From: Caulobacteraceae bacterium
GTDB lineage: Bacteria > Pseudomonadota > Alphaproteobacteria > Caulobacterales > Caulobacteraceae
Direction: 5' to 3'
DNA: 36,382 nucleotides
NCBI GenBank assembly: GCA_025352165.1
Contig: JANXTX010000145.1
Location: 1-36,382, forward strand
Shown here: positions 6,408 to 35,660 of the stretch, in pieces
Layout: the number at the start of each line of letters is the position of its first letter
Position numbering within the stretch: position 1 is the stretch's first letter
Notes under the pieces: generated by a model
The model's database searches: none
What the model saw: the letters and a program-made list of their open reading frames with translations, nothing else
Told to the model about the DNA's origin: nothing
Program-made: the position numbers and the translations under genes

Positions 6408-8434
6408 CGCAACAGAAGCCCGGGCGGCGGTGGCTGATCGGGGCGACCGCCGGCCTTGCCGTGATGATCGCCGGGGTCGCCGTCCTGGCGTTGACCTTGC
6501 CGCTGGGCAAGCTGCAGCGGTCCTCGCCGGTCATCCTGGACCGAAACGGCGCCTGGCTTCGGGCGATACCGGTCGAGAACGGTCGTTGGCGGCTGAGGGC
6601 CGATCTCGATCGCACCGATCCGGTGTTCATCCGCCGCCTGATCGCGTTGGAGGACGATCATTTCTGGCTGCATCCGGGGGTGGATCCGATAGCCCTGGCG
6701 CGCGCCATCGTCTCGGACGTCAGCGCCGGTCGCGTTCGTTCGGGTGGGTCGACGATCACGATGCAGCTGGCGCGCCGGCTGGAACCCAGGCGGCGCACGT
6801 TCGGAGCCAAGATGATCGAGGCGGCGCGGGCCGTCGGACTGGAGGCGCGCCTTGGTAAACGAGGCGTTCTGGCGGCCTATCTGACACTGACGCCTTACGG
6901 GGGCAGCCTGGAGGGAGTCCGCGCGGCATCACTGGGCTATTTCGGTCACGAGCCATCTACGCTGACCAACGCCGAACAGGCTCTGCTGATCGCCCTGCCA
7001 CAGGCGCCGGAACTACGCAGACCCGACCTTCATCCACAGGCCGCGCGCCGGGCGCGTGCCCGAGTCCTTCATTTGCTGGCCCTGCGCGGACTGATCGACG
7101 CCAGAGCCGCGGTGGAGGCAGCCGCCGAACCGTTGCCTCGCCGGATCGTCTTTCCGCAGCGGGCCTGGGCAGCAGCCGGCGAACTGGCGCGTAACGCCTC
7201 GCCGTCGCGCCCCACGATCGTCTCGACCCTTGATGTCCGGCTGCAGGCCCGCCTCGAAGCGCTAGCGGCGCAGACCGGCGCCGGTCAGGGCGACCAGTCG
7301 TCCGCGGCCATCATCGTCGTCGAAACCGCGACGCGGGCGGTGAGGGCCATTGTCTCGTCCGCCGGCCATGACCGCCCTGGGGGCTGGATCGACATCACCC
7401 GTTCGCTGCGCTCGCCCGGCTCATCCCTGAAGCCGTTCATCTATGCCTTCGCTTTCGAGCAGGGACTGGCGGCGCCCGAAACACGCATGACGGACGCGCC
7501 GGTGGCTTTCGCAGGCTATGAGCCGGAGAATTTCGACCGCACATTCCATGGCGATGTGACAGCGGCCCAGGCGCTGCAATACTCGCTCAACGTCCCCGCC
7601 GTCGCCATGCTGGCCAAGCTGGGTCCCGAAGCCTTCGAAGCCCGGCTTGAAGGCGCCGGCGCGCGGCTGGTGCGTCCGCGGCCAGGACTGGCCGATCCCG
7701 GTCTGGCCCTGGCGCTGGGAGGCGAGGGAATCAGCCTGCGGGATGTGGCGATGTTGTATGCGGCGTTGGGTGATCGTGGGCTGGCCAGGCCGCTTGTCTG
7801 GGCCCAGGACGATGCGGCGGGCCACCCGCGCGGCCGCAGGCTGGTCTCAGCCGAGGCGGCCCAGCAAGTCCTGTCGATCCTTCGCGAAAGTCCGCCTCCG
7901 CCAGGCCGGGCCCCGCCGGCGCTGAGCGAGGGCGCGCCCAAACTCGCCTTCAAGACCGGCACCTCCTACGGATTCCGCGACGCTGTCGCCGCTGGCATCG
8001 GCGATGGCTGGACCGTCGTGGTCTGGACCGGACGGCCGGACGGGGGCGCGCGCCCGGGAATGACCGGCCGTCAGGCGGCGCTGCCACTGCTGTTTCAGGT
8101 ATTTGATGTACTCGAGGCCGACGCGCCGCGCGCGCAGGCGCTTTCTCCGCAAGTCGCGCCACCCGCCCTCACACAGATCGACGATGGGCGAGGCGGACCG
8201 CAAATGCTTTTCCCGCCGGACGGCGCGTCGCTGCTGGTCGATGGATTCGGCCCAAACTCGCGGGGGCTGGCCCTGGCCGGACGCGGCGACGGGCTAAGAT
8301 GGTACGTGGATGGCGCGCCACTCGCCGATGACAACGGGCAGGTGGTTTGGCGCCCGGACTATCCGGGCTTCTACACAATTGCCGTGATCGATCGTCTTGG
8401 GCGGCAAGTCAAAACGCGCGTGCGGGTCCGCTGA
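6404..8434 (+). CDS. pbpC: Penicillin-binding protein 1C (glycosyltransferase/transpeptidase)
   Basis: A bifunctional class A PBP that polymerises glycan and may crosslink peptides in the periplasm. Visible parts in order: a transmembrane anchor (about 10-32); a GT51 glycosyltransferase domain with E83 in LEDDHFWLHPG and the GGSTITMQLARRL block; a transpeptidase with S340-S-L-K343, the SLN triad (S394-N396) and K517-T-G519; and a C-terminal PBP1C-type domain (from about 600, LFPPDGASLLVDG). All catalytic motifs are present. At 676 aa it is somewhat shorter than E. coli PbpC. The start ATG lies in the ATGA overlap with the macroglobulin gene, so the two are co-translated. The known genomic partnership suggests wall repair after a breach of the outer membrane. 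Confidence 0.96.
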   Translation: MTQQKPGRRWLIGATAGLAVMIAGVAVLALTLPLGKLQRSSPVILDRNGAWLRAIPVENGRWRLRADLDRTDPVFIRRLIALEDDHFWLHPGVDPIALARAIVSDVSAGRVRSGGSTITMQLARRLEPRRRTFGAKMIEAARAVGLEARLGKRGVLAAYLTLTPYGGSLEGVRAASLGYFGHEPSTLTNAEQALLIALPQAPELRRPDLHPQAARRARARVLHLLALRGLIDARAAVEAAAEPLPRRIVFPQRAWAAAGELARNASPSRPTIVSTLDVRLQARLEALAAQTGAGQGDQSSAAIIVVETATRAVRAIVSSAGHDRPGGWIDITRSLRSPGSSLKPFIYAFAFEQGLAAPETRMTDAPVAFAGYEPENFDRTFHGDVTAAQALQYSLNVPAVAMLAKLGPEAFEARLEGAGARLVRPRPGLADPGLALALGGEGISLRDVAMLYAALGDRGLARPLVWAQDDAAGHPRGRRLVSAEAAQQVLSILRESPPPPGRAPPALSEGAPKLAFKTGTSYGFRDAVAAGIGDGWTVVVWTGRPDGGARPGMTGRQAALPLLFQVFDVLEADAPRAQALSPQVAPPALTQIDDGRGGPQMLFPPDGASLLVDGFGPNSRGLALAGRGDGLRWYVDGAPLADDNGQVVWRPDYPGFYTIAVIDRLGRQVKTRVRVR

Positions 8435-32075: not shown

Positions 32076-32735
32076 TCAGCGAATTCTGGCCAGCATCACT
32101 CCATCGCCGATCGTCGCCAACGCCATATCGACGCGCTCGTCGGCGTGAATCTTCTCGTTCAGCGCCTTCAGGGCGAGGGTGTCCGGATCGGTGACAGCGG
32201 GGTCGGCGACGGCCCCGCTCCACAACATGTTGTCGAACGCAATCAGGCCGCCCGGGCGCATCAGCTTGAGCGCACGCTCATAATAGTTGTCGTAGTTGGT
32301 CTTGTCGGCGTCGATGAAGGCGAGGTCGAACGGAGCTTCGTCGACGGCAATCATGGCGTCGAGCGAGACCAGACCCGGACCCAGGCGAAGGTCGATCATC
32401 CCCGCGACACCCGCCTCCCGCCAATAGTCGCTGGCCCGATCGGTGAAGTCCTTGCTGACGTCGAGGGCGACGATCTGGCCGCCAGGTGGCAATGCCAACG
32501 CCATGCTCAATGCACTGTAGCCCGTAAAGGTTCCGACCTCGAGGCAGCGCCGCGCGCCGGTCAGCCGAGCCAGCATGGCCAGAAAAGCGCCCTGTTCCGG
32601 CGCGATCTGCATGCCGGAAATCCTGCCCAGGGTCGCGGTTTCTTCACGGCATCGCATCTGTGCGGGGTGCTCACGAGCGCCAAGTCGCGACAGATAGTCC
32701 ATCAGGCCGTCGGTCGCCTGTACGAAACGTCCCAT
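32076..32735 (-). CDS. Class I O-methyltransferase, CCoAOMT-like
   Basis: A SAM-dependent, metal-dependent catechol-type O-methyltransferase of 219 aa. Motif I is EVGTFTGYSA (66-75). Metal and substrate residues lie in IDADK (141-145) and FDNMLWSG (167-174). Start ATG 32735 is chosen because GGGGAG lies 9 nt upstream; the frame extends to 32777. Related bacterial enzymes methylate catechols or caffeoyl-like substrates. It precedes the flavin monooxygenase on the same strand, suggesting possible joint work on an aromatic or ketone substrate (inference). Confidence 0.93.
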   Translation of the reverse strand: MGRFVQATDGLMDYLSRLGAREHPAQMRCREETATLGRISGMQIAPEQGAFLAMLARLTGARRCLEVGTFTGYSALSMALALPPGGQIVALDVSKDFTDRASDYWREAGVAGMIDLRLGPGLVSLDAMIAVDEAPFDLAFIDADKTNYDNYYERALKLMRPGGLIAFDNMLWSGAVADPAVTDPDTLALKALNEKIHADERVDMALATIGDGVMLARIR

Positions 32736-32807
32736 GAGCCTGATCTCCCCGCGCGTGGCCGCCGTTGCCGAATGCATACCGGCGCCGGCGGAATTGTGCG
32801 AGATGAT

Positions 32808-32948
32808 TCAGGTCGCCCTCGCTTCCAGGTGGGCCTTCATTGTCTCCAGCCCCGCGGCCGTGAGCGACCCCCGGGAATCGGCCGGCCCATGTGGCGGCAC
32901 ATCGGCGACCCACACGGCCCGACCCATCGTCGCGTGCCGGTGCATCAT
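32808..32948 (-). CDS. Possible 46-aa protein of unknown function
   Basis: A short ORF from ATG 32948 to TGA 32808, or 39 aa from ATG 32927. It encodes a fairly protein-like sequence (MGRAVWVADVPPHG, SLTAAGLETMKAHL) with a strong bias to G or C at third positions. No strong ribosome site is visible. It lies between rcnA and the methyltransferase gene, on the same strand, 72 nt upstream of the methyltransferase start. It might be a leader or a genuine small gene; I recognise no family. Confidence 0.35.
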   Translation of the reverse strand: MMHRHATMGRAVWVADVPPHGPADSRGSLTAAGLETMKAHLEARAT

Positions 32949-32987
32949 GCTCGGATCATCAATTCGTGATGCCGCGCGGACAACACC

Positions 32988-33767
32988 TCATTGCAGCGCT
33001 GACAAAGCCTGCGCCGCGAGGGCGAATGCCACGAGCGTGATCAATACCGCCGACGCATAGGGCGCGCGGCGGGCGACCATGCCGAAGGCATCTCCCCAAC
33101 GTGTCTCCGCGTGGCGCATGCCGAGGGCCGCGGCGACGCCGACGCTGACCATGGTCACCGCGAGACCTACTGAGAAGCAGAGGACCAGCGCCGCGCCCAG
33201 GGCGATCTGCTTGAGTTGCAGGCAGACCAGCAGCACGGTGATCGAGGCGGGGCAGGGGACCAGGCCGCCGGTGAGGCCGAAGGCCACGATCTGACCGGTG
33301 GTGACATGCCGACCGGTATTGCCGGCGAAGCGGCGGCGGATCTCTTCCGCGTGGGCGCGCTGGTGTGCGTCATCGTGATGATCATGGTCATGTTCGTGAT
33401 GATGGTCGTCGTGATGGGGTTGCTGTTCGCGCCAGGTGCGCCAGGCCATCCAGGCGGCGACGCCGAGGATGATGGCGGCCGAGCCTAGTTGGAAGTACGG
33501 CTCCGACCTAGCCAGATTGAGATTTCGCCCGAAATACAGGCCGCCCAGCGCGACCAACCAGACGACGGCGGTGTGCGAGACCGTCGCCGACAGCCCCAGC
33601 AGGGCCGCCTGCCAGGCGGTTCCACGGACTGCGACGATGAAGGCCGCCATCATGGTTTTCGAATGGCCGGGTTCCAGTCCGTGCAGCGCGCCCAGCAGGA
33701 TCGCGCTGGGAATGAACAGCCAGAGGTTGGCCGAGCCCTGCTGCAGAAGATGAGCGAGATCGGGCAT
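32988..33767 (-). CDS. rcnA: Nickel/cobalt efflux protein, NicO/RcnA family
   Basis: A six- to seven-helix membrane exporter of Ni or Co, 259 aa. The signature HGLEPGHSKT (29-38) sits in the first helices. A histidine/aspartate-rich cytoplasmic loop (118-139, eleven His) is typical of RcnA. The later GLVPCPASITVLL helix carries the Pro-Cys-Pro. It starts 4 nt after the stop of the methyltransferase gene, which itself follows the metal sensor by 13 nt, so the three form one operon. Metal is inferred from the family; other divalent cations are possible. Confidence 0.93.
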   Translation of the reverse strand: MPDLAHLLQQGSANLWLFIPSAILLGALHGLEPGHSKTMMAAFIVAVRGTAWQAALLGLSATVSHTAVVWLVALGGLYFGRNLNLARSEPYFQLGSAAIILGVAAWMAWRTWREQQPHHDDHHHEHDHDHHDDAHQRAHAEEIRRRFAGNTGRHVTTGQIVAFGLTGGLVPCPASITVLLVCLQLKQIALGAALVLCFSVGLAVTMVSVGVAAALGMRHAETRWGDAFGMVARRAPYASAVLITLVAFALAAQALSALQ

Positions 33768-33771
33768 CGGA

Positions 33772-34764
33772 TCAGACAGCGGTCTCGGGTGGGTTGACGG
33801 TCTTTTCCAGCAGTACGAACCAGGCGTTGTTGAACATCCCCTCGTCGATCAACCGAAAGCCGGCGCGGGCGGCCATCTCGCGCCACGCCGATTTTGACGT
33901 GAGAAACAGCGAGAGAAGATTGGCAACCGCGAACATCGCCCAGCCAGGAACCCAGACCGCCATCAGAAATCGGCCACCGGGCTTGAGCACGCGATGAACT
34001 TCGTCGAGGCCGCGCTGTTTGTCCCTGCCGAGATGGTCATAAACGTGGGTGCTGACCGCGCTGTCGAAGTCCCCGTCGTCGAACGGCAGCCGGATGAGGT
34101 CGGCGGTTTCGACTGTGACCCTGTCTGAGAGGCCGGTCAGGGCGAGATTGCGCTCGAGCAGAGCCCGTCCGCCATCGTCGATGTAGCCGGCATCGAACCG
34201 GTCGACGGCAACCACGTGGCCGTACTTCAGGATCCGGCTAAGCGCGATAGTGGTTCGTCCGGCGCCGCAGCCGGCATCGAGCACGACGTCACGGTCGCCT
34301 CGCAGCAAATCGACCATTGGCAGCACCACCTGATCGCGACGCCGGAACCCATTCATGATCAGGTTGCCGGTCAGCAGCACGACAGCGGAGGCCACAGCCG
34401 CCCAGCCGAGAGGCCACAGAGCCGGAGCGGTGAGTTGCAAGGCCAGCGCGCCTGCGCCGACGATCAGCGCGGCAATCGCCAGCCCGTTCATCCATCCGGG
34501 ACCCCAGCCGAAATCCACTCGCGTTCCATCGACCCGCGAATTCAGACGCCGGACGACGCGTCGCAAGCCCACGGTCCAGGCCGAGGCGAGGATGACGATC
34601 GCGCCGACGACGTGGAAGCCCGCGAACAATATCAGTGACGCCGAGACCACTTTCAGTTTCGGCAGGAAGACGAGAATACCGGCGCCGATGGCGATCCCCG
34701 CCACGCCCATGATCCAGAGGTGGCTGTGTGGCGATGCACGACGGGTAGCGGTGCGACTGGTCAT
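33772..34764 (-). CDS. Membrane-anchored class I methyltransferase in a metal-efflux operon
   Basis: A 330-aa protein. The N-terminal half has four hydrophobic segments (about 17-35, 41-62, 92-110 and 115-136) separated by a loop containing RVDFGWGPGWMNG. The C-terminal half is a SAM methyltransferase: motif I VVLDAGCGAGR (160-170), then AVDRFDAGYIDDGG, ADLIRLPFDDGDFD and the post-motif HRVLKPGGRFLMAVW. A hydrophobic stretch (WAMFAVANLLSLFLT) lies near the end. I know no firm name for this architecture. It is flanked by the metal sensor (13 nt upstream) and rcnA (4 nt downstream). Whether the substrate is a metal or metalloid, a lipid or a small thiol cannot be told. Confidence 0.85.
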   Translation of the reverse strand: MTSRTATRRASPHSHLWIMGVAGIAIGAGILVFLPKLKVVSASLILFAGFHVVGAIVILASAWTVGLRRVVRRLNSRVDGTRVDFGWGPGWMNGLAIAALIVGAGALALQLTAPALWPLGWAAVASAVVLLTGNLIMNGFRRRDQVVLPMVDLLRGDRDVVLDAGCGAGRTTIALSRILKYGHVVAVDRFDAGYIDDGGRALLERNLALTGLSDRVTVETADLIRLPFDDGDFDSAVSTHVYDHLGRDKQRGLDEVHRVLKPGGRFLMAVWVPGWAMFAVANLLSLFLTSKSAWREMAARAGFRLIDEGMFNNAWFVLLEKTVNPPETAV

Positions 34765-34777
34765 GTTCCCTGTTCCC

Positions 34778-35035
34778 TCAAAGATATCTGGTCAGCTGTT
34801 TGATCTCCTTGAGATCGGATCGCGTCGCCTCACCGCCCTCCAGACAGTGCTCGATGTGGTCGTGAATCAACTCGCGCTTGGCGGCGATGATCGCGGCCTC
34901 GACGGCGTGAAGCTGCTGAGCGAGGTCCACGCACGGCCGCCCCTGCTCGATCATGCCGATGATCGAGCGAAGGTGTCCCTCCGCCCGCTTCAGGCGGGCG
35001 GTGATCGCGGGATGAGAGGCGTGTTTGGCGGTCAT
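34778..35035 (-). CDS. Metal-sensing repressor, CsoR/RcnR/FrmR family
   Basis: An 85-aa all-helical DNA-binding repressor that releases DNA on binding its ligand. Likely ligands are Cys35, His60 and Cys64 with N-terminal His5 or His8. This C-H-C set matches CsoR and InrS rather than E. coli RcnR, which has His at the last position. FrmR-type formaldehyde sensors share Cys35 but differ at 64. Its place ahead of rcnA argues for Ni or Co; Cu(I) is possible. The ATG 35035 has AGGATAAG upstream. A G-tract dyad overlaps the upstream region, so it probably autoregulates the operon. Confidence 0.92.
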   Translation of the reverse strand: MTAKHASHPAITARLKRAEGHLRSIIGMIEQGRPCVDLAQQLHAVEAAIIAAKRELIHDHIEHCLEGGEATRSDLKEIKQLTRYL

Positions 35036-35042
35036 GAACGCT

Positions 35043-35068
35043 TATCCTATCCCCCTGGAGAGGTTATG
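35043..35068. promoter_or_regulatory. Candidate operator of the metal sensor
   Basis: TATCCTATCCCCCTGGAGAG then GTTATG is a C/G-tract with AT-rich flanks, the general layout of CsoR/RcnR-family operators. The dyad is imperfect. It lies 8-33 nt before the sensor's ATG, so occupancy would block the promoter or early transcription. Confidence 0.4.
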
Positions 35069-35207
35069 ATCCGCCGGGCGCGCCAGGGTGTCAACGCATT
35101 TCTGCGCGCCAACGGCGGCGACCTCGATTTCCGGCACAATCAGCACCGCATTCAGGCGACATTCATCAATAGTCCTCCAAACGACGGTTCTACGCTGGAG
35201 ATACGCA

Positions 35208-35660
35208 ATGACCCTTTCCGCACCGCGCCTCGCCGTTCTTGCCGGCATCGCGCTGCCGCTCGCGATCGCGGGAGCCAGCTTCGCCCAAGGCCAGTTCAGC
35301 GGACCGCCGCCAGGACCTCCTGGCTCCAACGGCGCGCCGCCCAACCGTCCACCGATGTCGCAGGCTGAGTACATGCGCCAGACCCTGGGACTCTCGCCTG
35401 CGCAGGAACCGGCGTTGCAGACCTTTCTCGCCGCCGTCGCGGCCCCACCGGGCCTGCAGGCGCACATCCAGGCGCAGGACACGCAGATGAACGCGGTGCC
35501 CACGCCGCAGCGGCTGGACATGATGCTGTCGCGGATGGACGAAGCGCGCAGCCTGATGGTCACGCGCATTCAGGCGACCAAGCGCTTCTACTCCGAGCTC
35601 TCGCCGGCGCAGCAGCGCACCTTCGATAGCCTCGGCTCACAAGGCGGTCCGCCGCGCTGA
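35208..35660 (+). CDS. Spy/CpxP-like periplasmic protein
   Basis: A 150-aa exported protein. The Sec signal peptide (LAVLAGIALPLAIAGASFA-Q) is followed by a Pro/Gly-rich linker. A helical body carries two LSPAQ-type motifs (LGLSPAQEPALQTF and ELSPAQQRTFDSL) typical of LTxxQ Spy/CpxP proteins. These act as periplasmic holdases or stress sensors for envelope or metal stress. The start ATG 35208 has GGAG 7 nt upstream; the frame extends to 35088 without protein-like sequence. It is divergent from the metal-sensor operon and could be part of the same stress response (inference). Confidence 0.85.
   Translation: MTLSAPRLAVLAGIALPLAIAGASFAQGQFSGPPPGPPGSNGAPPNRPPMSQAEYMRQTLGLSPAQEPALQTFLAAVAAPPGLQAHIQAQDTQMNAVPTPQRLDMMLSRMDEARSLMVTRIQATKRFYSELSPAQQRTFDSLGSQGGPPR

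Follow-up and report, generated by a model that had tools for sequence, protein, structure and literature searches.

In a contig of a Caulobacteraceae bacterium, a predicted metal sensor, a membrane-anchored methyltransferase and a nickel/cobalt exporter of the RcnA family appear to form one metal-controlled operon. The window, that is, the whole stretch of 36,382 nt that was analysed, carries the three genes on its minus strand as intact open reading frames, in the order sensor, methyltransferase, exporter, with intergenic gaps of 13 and 4 nt. This arrangement had been noticed in a sequence-only reading, and the common strand and both gap lengths are confirmed exactly. The range which that reading gave, 33767-35068, spans the sensor, the methyltransferase and the operator, but the exporter falls outside it.

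The region upstream of the sensor gene carries the likely control elements. An operator-like dyad with a G5 tract, TAACCTCTCCAGGGGGATAGGATA (35043..35066, minus strand), is located 8-9 nt 5' of the sensor start codon and has 2 mismatches to a motif common to the relatives, while shuffled sequences are expected to give 0 such sites. The consensus of this dyad, TATCCTATCCAGGGGGATAGGATA, is recognisable upstream of nine of the ten CsoR/RcnR-family genes found at methyltransferase loci (the window, L004, L007, L012, L015, L016, L049, L050 and L051), the tenth being the divergent sensor of L006, and its strict core, TCCNNGGGGATAGGA, is present at seven of the ten. When the whole genome of the window was scanned with up to three mismatches, a single dyad site was obtained (reversed control, 0), in line with a repressor that controls just one operon. 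The G-tract dyad is thus a putative operator of the kind that CsoR/RcnR-family repressors bind, placed before the sensor's own gene. It is abutted by a promoter-like site, TTGACA-17-GATCAT (35066..35094, minus strand; 10/12 matches in a consensus scan), for which the scan gave one site against a shuffle mean of 0.3, a result that is weak taken alone.

At the other end of the unit, no terminator-like site was found in the 210-nt gap after the RcnA gene (32778-32987), so read-through into the next gene is possible. This gene (32076-32777, minus strand) encodes a second methyltransferase, a soluble catechol-type O-methyltransferase (PF01596, E 3e-64). A gene divergent from that of the sensor, at 35208-35660 (plus strand), encodes a small secreted-looking protein of the LTXXQ family (PF07813, E 7e-10, with a weak Metal_resist match). 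The LTXXQ group includes CpxP/Spy-like periplasmic proteins.

The sensor, a protein of 85 aa (34778..35035, minus strand), belongs to the CsoR/RcnR family, and its PF02583 match (E 9e-23) reaches 80.9 bits against a curated cut-off of 22.8. Its metal-ligand residues, C35-H60-C64, represent the X-Y-Z set Cys-His-Cys/His, and two further histidines, H5 and H8, are located at the N-terminus. The same ligand set is given for the nickel sensor InrS (C53/H78/C82) and the copper sensor CsoR (C36/H61/C65) in the available part of PMC7055735, which assigns a histidine as the third ligand to RcnR and DmeR, the DmeR residues being given also in the available part of PMC6044271. In NCBIfam the sensor scores highest with the profile of RicR, a copper sensor (42.8 bits against a cut-off of 175), and next with RcnR (22 bits), and its best PDB matches, CsoR and InrS, are practically tied, so copper is still a possible signal. 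At position 3, where nickel sensors carry an N-terminal histidine (position 3 in RcnR, 21 in InrS), the protein has an alanine; H5 and H8 lie nearby and are conserved among the sensors upstream of the methyltransferase. Nickel or cobalt is favoured because the adjoining exporter is a clear RcnA, and the sensed metal is likely one of these two rather than copper. A related sensor (E <= 1e-15) occurs in 62 of 388 genomes of the window's family, and the eight genomes with the methyltransferase beside the sensor fall among the nine closest to the sensor of the window.

The exporter (32988..33767, minus strand; 259 aa, with a His-rich loop) is clearly a member of the RcnA family with predicted nickel/cobalt efflux activity. 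It matches NicO with an E of 3e-28 and the NCBIfam profile NF007454, 'nickel/cobalt efflux transporter', with 367 bits against a cut-off of 195. The identities first proposed for both the sensor and the exporter are therefore upheld by the PF02583 and NF007454 scores.

Between these two genes lies that of a class I SAM methyltransferase of 330 aa (33772..34764, minus strand; Methyltransf_11, E 3e-16, residues 162-267). Its N-terminal membrane part covers residues 1-157 (34294..34764, minus strand). The AlphaFold2 model (mean pLDDT 81.1, pTM 0.78) places helices at residues 12-32, 44-74, 89-112 and 114-139, and the hydropathy peaks agree, which bears out the four-helix membrane enzyme described from the letters. 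The membrane part contains HxHxW ahead of helix 1, H51 within helix 2, FGWGPGWMN ahead of helix 3 and GN where helix 4 ends. In the family alignment, H51, F85, G86 and W87 are invariant, H15 and W17 are nearly so (invariant in 20 rows), and H13, W91, N93 and N134 are conserved in at least 90% of the rows; the SAM motif D163-A-G-x-G-x-G-R-T is also invariant. Residues that are conserved in the family border the catalytic domain where it faces the membrane. Additionally, of six pairs compared, five give a dN/dS between 0.06 and 0.30 for the methyltransferase, and the sixth (the two Bacteroidota) is saturated at silent sites. For the membrane part, the five pairs that are free of this saturation give 0.03 to 0.32, a constraint equal to that on the rest of the protein. 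Given these near-invariant residues and low ratios, the membrane part is, to judge from its conservation, more than a mere anchor.

The class I fold is indicated by VIA-align comparisons with solved structures, which give Z values of 18-22 over about 160-187 residues, in agreement with Pfam. A Foldseek search with the full model gave 1256 matches at E <= 0.001 to generic class I enzymes; the nearest structures are generic small-molecule methyltransferases of this class and point to no single chemistry. The membrane part modelled alone (pTM 0.49, low confidence) had no PDB match at E <= 0.001. For all 21 family members the best NCBIfam profiles are of the ArsM type, with scores well short of the cut-offs and matches confined to the SAM-binding region. 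For instance, the enzyme of the window scores 36-47 bits with arsenite-methyltransferase profiles whose cut-offs are 240-575, and 35.9 bits with NF008823, whose cut-off is 263. Membership of the UbiE/MenG quinone methyltransferases was considered and rejected (TIGR01934, 30.5 bits, cut-off 158). Only one cysteine column is conserved in the family, that of SAM motif I (20 of 21 rows), and no second column is shared by more than 3 of the 21.

The family comprises 21 full or nearly full-length members: that of the window, 16 of the 28 loci from a contig scan, and 4 new ones among the 17 loci from a family search. Twelve contig-scan loci (L020-L031) were left out as matching the protein only in part, and 12 family-search loci as duplicates of contig-scan loci. 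In the window's family, Caulobacteraceae, 16 of the 390 genomes searched carry the methyltransferase (E <= 1e-20). The neighbourhood search in Alphaproteobacteria proposed in the sequence-only reading was run, but it yielded almost nothing beyond this family: one of 385 genomes of the class, and likewise one of 299 Pseudomonadota genomes, carries the enzyme, in both cases the window's own. Outside Caulobacteraceae, the draft genomes that carry it are two of Bacteroidota, one of Acidobacteriales and one of a gammaproteobacterium. The phylum of L018 has it in 1 of 296 genomes, that of L018 itself, and the phylum of L008 in 4 of 149; in three of these four, at least the first two helices are absent (the matches begin at residue 83 or 159), and no metal genes were seen beside these three short relatives in the ORFs inspected by eye. 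A distant acidobacterial methyltransferase (L073, 4968-5762, minus strand) keeps the FG-x-GW motif and two helices, with the first two absent, a sign that the family of membrane methyltransferases extends further. Among plasmids, 39 records have partial SAM-domain matches, none covering 80%, and phages gave no match to the methyltransferase, so there is no sign of mobility. Phenylobacterium aquaticum KACC 18306 carries two copies; in its CsoR-type copy (L012, 5060-5300) the first-helix segment is in a different frame from the rest, and its second, TetR-type copy (L006) is intact.

Two kinds of control can be distinguished among the 21 loci. A CsoR gene is located directly upstream of the methyltransferase in eight, seven of which have the full sensor-methyltransferase-RcnA order; a divergent TetR gene lies beside it in 11; and two, both from Bacteroidota, have neither, the contig of L017 being just 3.2 kb long. 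In these arrangements, adjacency of CsoR and methyltransferase genes exceeds chance. The association with rcnA and CsoR-family genes seen in the window thus holds for part of the family, with 8 of 21 members beside CsoR and 8 of 21 followed by RcnA, but 11 of 21 sit beside TetR instead. On the enzyme tree, 2 changes suffice to account for the control labels, the lowest number that three groups allow; shuffled labels required 8.2, and none of 200 shuffles came down to 2. Of the 18 inner branches of this tree, 9 are weakly supported, and the changes are counted irrespective of the direction of the swap. The TetR-type enzymes of sister Caulobacteraceae are 57-64% identical to that of the window.

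A palindrome within two mismatches of TGTCCGGAAACCGGACA lies between TetR and enzyme genes in 7 of the 11 TetR loci, 110-135 nt before the enzyme. Over ten genomes, nine sites were found at two mismatches, seven of them in TetR-methyltransferase gaps; since the reversed control gave 21, this motif is backed by its position and not by its genome-wide count. TetR repressors typically respond to organic ligands. Beside the TetR-type methyltransferase of L014, the stretch 7165-8313 encodes a MerR-family protein and, by a weak match (PF03203, E 0.002), a MerC-like one, which hints at a locus for mercury or another metal.

The genes that follow the enzyme are frequently transporters. In 12 of 20 readable loci a transporter gene comes directly after it (RcnA in eight, CDF in one, EamA in one and a tentative NicO-like protein in two). 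Metal-exporter-type genes account for 11 of the 20, counting the two tentative ones, and the other nine have different genes or none there. RcnA is directly downstream in seven of the eight CsoR-type loci and in the TetR-type locus L006. At L008, the next gene encodes a CDF-like cation exporter (called by eye from sequence), beside an RND gene of the AcrB family; at L019 an EamA transporter follows; and at L017 and L018 a His-bearing membrane protein of uncertain family. This Bacteroidota partner was called NicO-like by eye, and the label is tentative, as Pfam gives no family at E 0.001. The L017 partner is 27% identical to RcnA over 108 aa (E 3e-5 in a five-sequence comparison), and the Bacteroidota partner shows 38% identity over 126 aa to a His-rich membrane protein of genome G767 (L083, 713-1486, minus strand). 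The latter gene follows a CsoR gene, and its product, with a very long His-rich loop and a sub-threshold ZIP match alone, possibly represents an undescribed exporter family. At L007, a CsoR-RcnA pair lies beyond the TetR gene, and a heavy-metal P-type ATPase about 2.5 kb downstream.

As far as gene content tells, each of the two, enzyme and RcnA, can occur without the other. A search for RcnA in 22 genomes (E <= 1e-20) found it in all eight CsoR-type genomes and in two of the 11 TetR-type genomes, G615 and G662, of which G662 carries both types. In the other nine TetR-type genomes RcnA was undetectable at this threshold, so RcnA cannot be the enzyme's sole target, nor is the enzyme a mere RcnA accessory. 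Conversely, in genome G398 (L085), of the window's genus, sensor, operator (2 mismatches) and RcnA are directly joined with no methyltransferase, which suggests that sensor and exporter make a complete unit and that the enzyme is an added or lost part. Two further CsoR-RcnA loci without the enzyme (L088 and L099) are present among 30 sensor loci read. The loci L015 and L016 are near-identical, with the same flanking genes by eye; in L016, RcnA does not follow the methyltransferase, and the genome has it on another contig.

The following mechanism can be proposed for the operon. A metal, more likely nickel or cobalt than copper, would bind the CsoR/RcnR-family repressor and thereby free the promoter, and RcnA would export the metal ion. 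The methyltransferase, anchored by its four helices with the catalytic domain on the cytoplasmic face of the membrane, would methylate a lipophilic metal-binding ligand of the thiol, hydroxamate or phenolate type, which would then no longer hold metal. Such a ligand could be a chelator or ionophore carrying metal across the membrane, and the dedicated TetR repressor of the relatives would answer an organic compound rather than a metal. Taken as a whole, this combination of a metal-derepressed operon, RcnA export and methylation of a lipophilic ligand, the substrate that we infer, is put forward tentatively, as a possible reading with considerable doubt attached. It is preferred because a ligand of this kind best explains an enzyme that is paired either with TetR or with a metal sensor and exporters, and it is close to the 'thiol or lipid that binds metal' named among the first suggestions. 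A two-part defence against metal-loading molecules might also operate, in which the enzyme methylates the ionophore or chelator where it is dissolved, the exporter removes the freed metal, and the alarm is swapped between TetR for the ligand and CsoR for the metal; this we consider quite unlikely.

The substrate might otherwise be a membrane lipid, with methylation of its head group lowering metal binding or leakage and with the TetR repressors of the relatives answering membrane-active compounds. The four-helix membrane part with its conserved interface residues is consistent with such a role, as is the presence of the phosphatidylethanolamine N-methyltransferase 8ys9 in the top 50 Foldseek matches. 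However, 8ys9 is just one of the 1256 generic matches, and Caulobacter membranes are poor in phosphatidylethanolamine. A lipid substrate is unlikely. Unlikely too is that an ordinary small-molecule methyltransferase has come under the sensor's promoter with no role in metal handling, although both possibilities are serious competitors of the preferred reading. Sister loci that are TetR-controlled with no exporter nearby agree with this, and G398 manages without the enzyme. Yet at least three kinds of exporter-type gene follow the enzyme across three phyla (L008, L017, L018 and Caulobacteraceae), the metal-operon lineage is under strong constraint (dN/dS 0.06 for L015/L016), and L016 keeps sensor and enzyme where its near relative also has RcnA, which in the L016 genome is found elsewhere.

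Direct methylation of a metal or metalloid (arsenic, selenium, tellurium or mercury), followed by volatilisation or export, was also among the first suggestions and is very unlikely. ArsM-type profiles rank highest in NCBIfam for every member, and the MerR and weak MerC-like genes of L014 adjoin the enzyme; but these profiles stay below cut-off, the neighbours are divalent-cation exporters, and the motif-I cysteine alone is conserved, so the ArsM cysteine set is missing. That the enzyme methylates the exporter itself, as was likewise proposed, or another membrane protein is hardly probable, for although it adjoins RcnA in eight loci and another transporter in four, most TetR-type genomes have no detectable RcnA and the partner transporters come from unrelated families.

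Metal resistance is usually described as sensing combined with export or sequestration. A metal-signalled enzyme that alters a membrane component would constitute a third arm beside these, and its ability to be switched to a TetR-type signal would connect the tolerance of metals with protection from small molecules that carry them. The question is testable, as the methyltransferase family is small, well delimited and found in cultivable Phenylobacterium.

Among known systems, rcnR-rcnA of E. coli and dmeRF of rhizobia likewise have a repressor of the same Pfam family and a G-tract operator, according to the available parts of PMC6044271 and PMC7055735. The operon of the window shares its RcnA-type exporter with rcnR-rcnA, while the exporter of dmeRF is the CDF protein DmeF; it shares with dmeRF, as presented in the same two sources, the position of the sensor as first gene. 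It differs from both in the membrane methyltransferase placed between sensor and exporter. Its sensor has Cys64 as the third ligand where RcnR and DmeR have His64, and the C-H-C set is common to it, InrS of Synechocystis (nickel) and CsoR of M. tuberculosis (copper). As in InrS, a proline precedes the first cysteine in the alignment, whereas the N-terminal histidines lie away from the position used in InrS and RcnR.

As regards the enzyme, ArsM supplies the best NCBIfam profiles for its SAM-binding region, but the scores are far below cut-off and an ArsM-like cysteine set is absent. Nor is ArsM known to have a membrane part. A mechanistic precedent, by analogy, may be offered by human TMT1A/TMT1B (METTL7A/B), proteins with a hydrophobic N-terminus whose thiol methylation inactivates drugs with a zinc-binding thiol, as reported in the available parts of PMC7921093 and PMC10705543. 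The likeness, drawn by fold and not by sequence, consists in a class I methyltransferase with a hydrophobic N-terminus and in the proposed logic of methylating a metal-binding ligand; the difference is that these enzymes are human and have no tie to metal sensors or exporters. The nearest counterparts are the TetR-methyltransferase pairs of sister Caulobacteraceae, which have the same enzyme, with TetR replacing CsoR and RcnA usually absent from the genome. Among the matches listed in searches of open-licence PMC papers, none describes an operon or enzyme family of this kind, in keeping with the initial remark that a methyltransferase between sensor and exporter was unfamiliar, and the arrangement recurs in relatives. 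The sensor-exporter operon is accordingly rated as known, and the membrane methyltransferase within it, of an uncharacterised family, as new.
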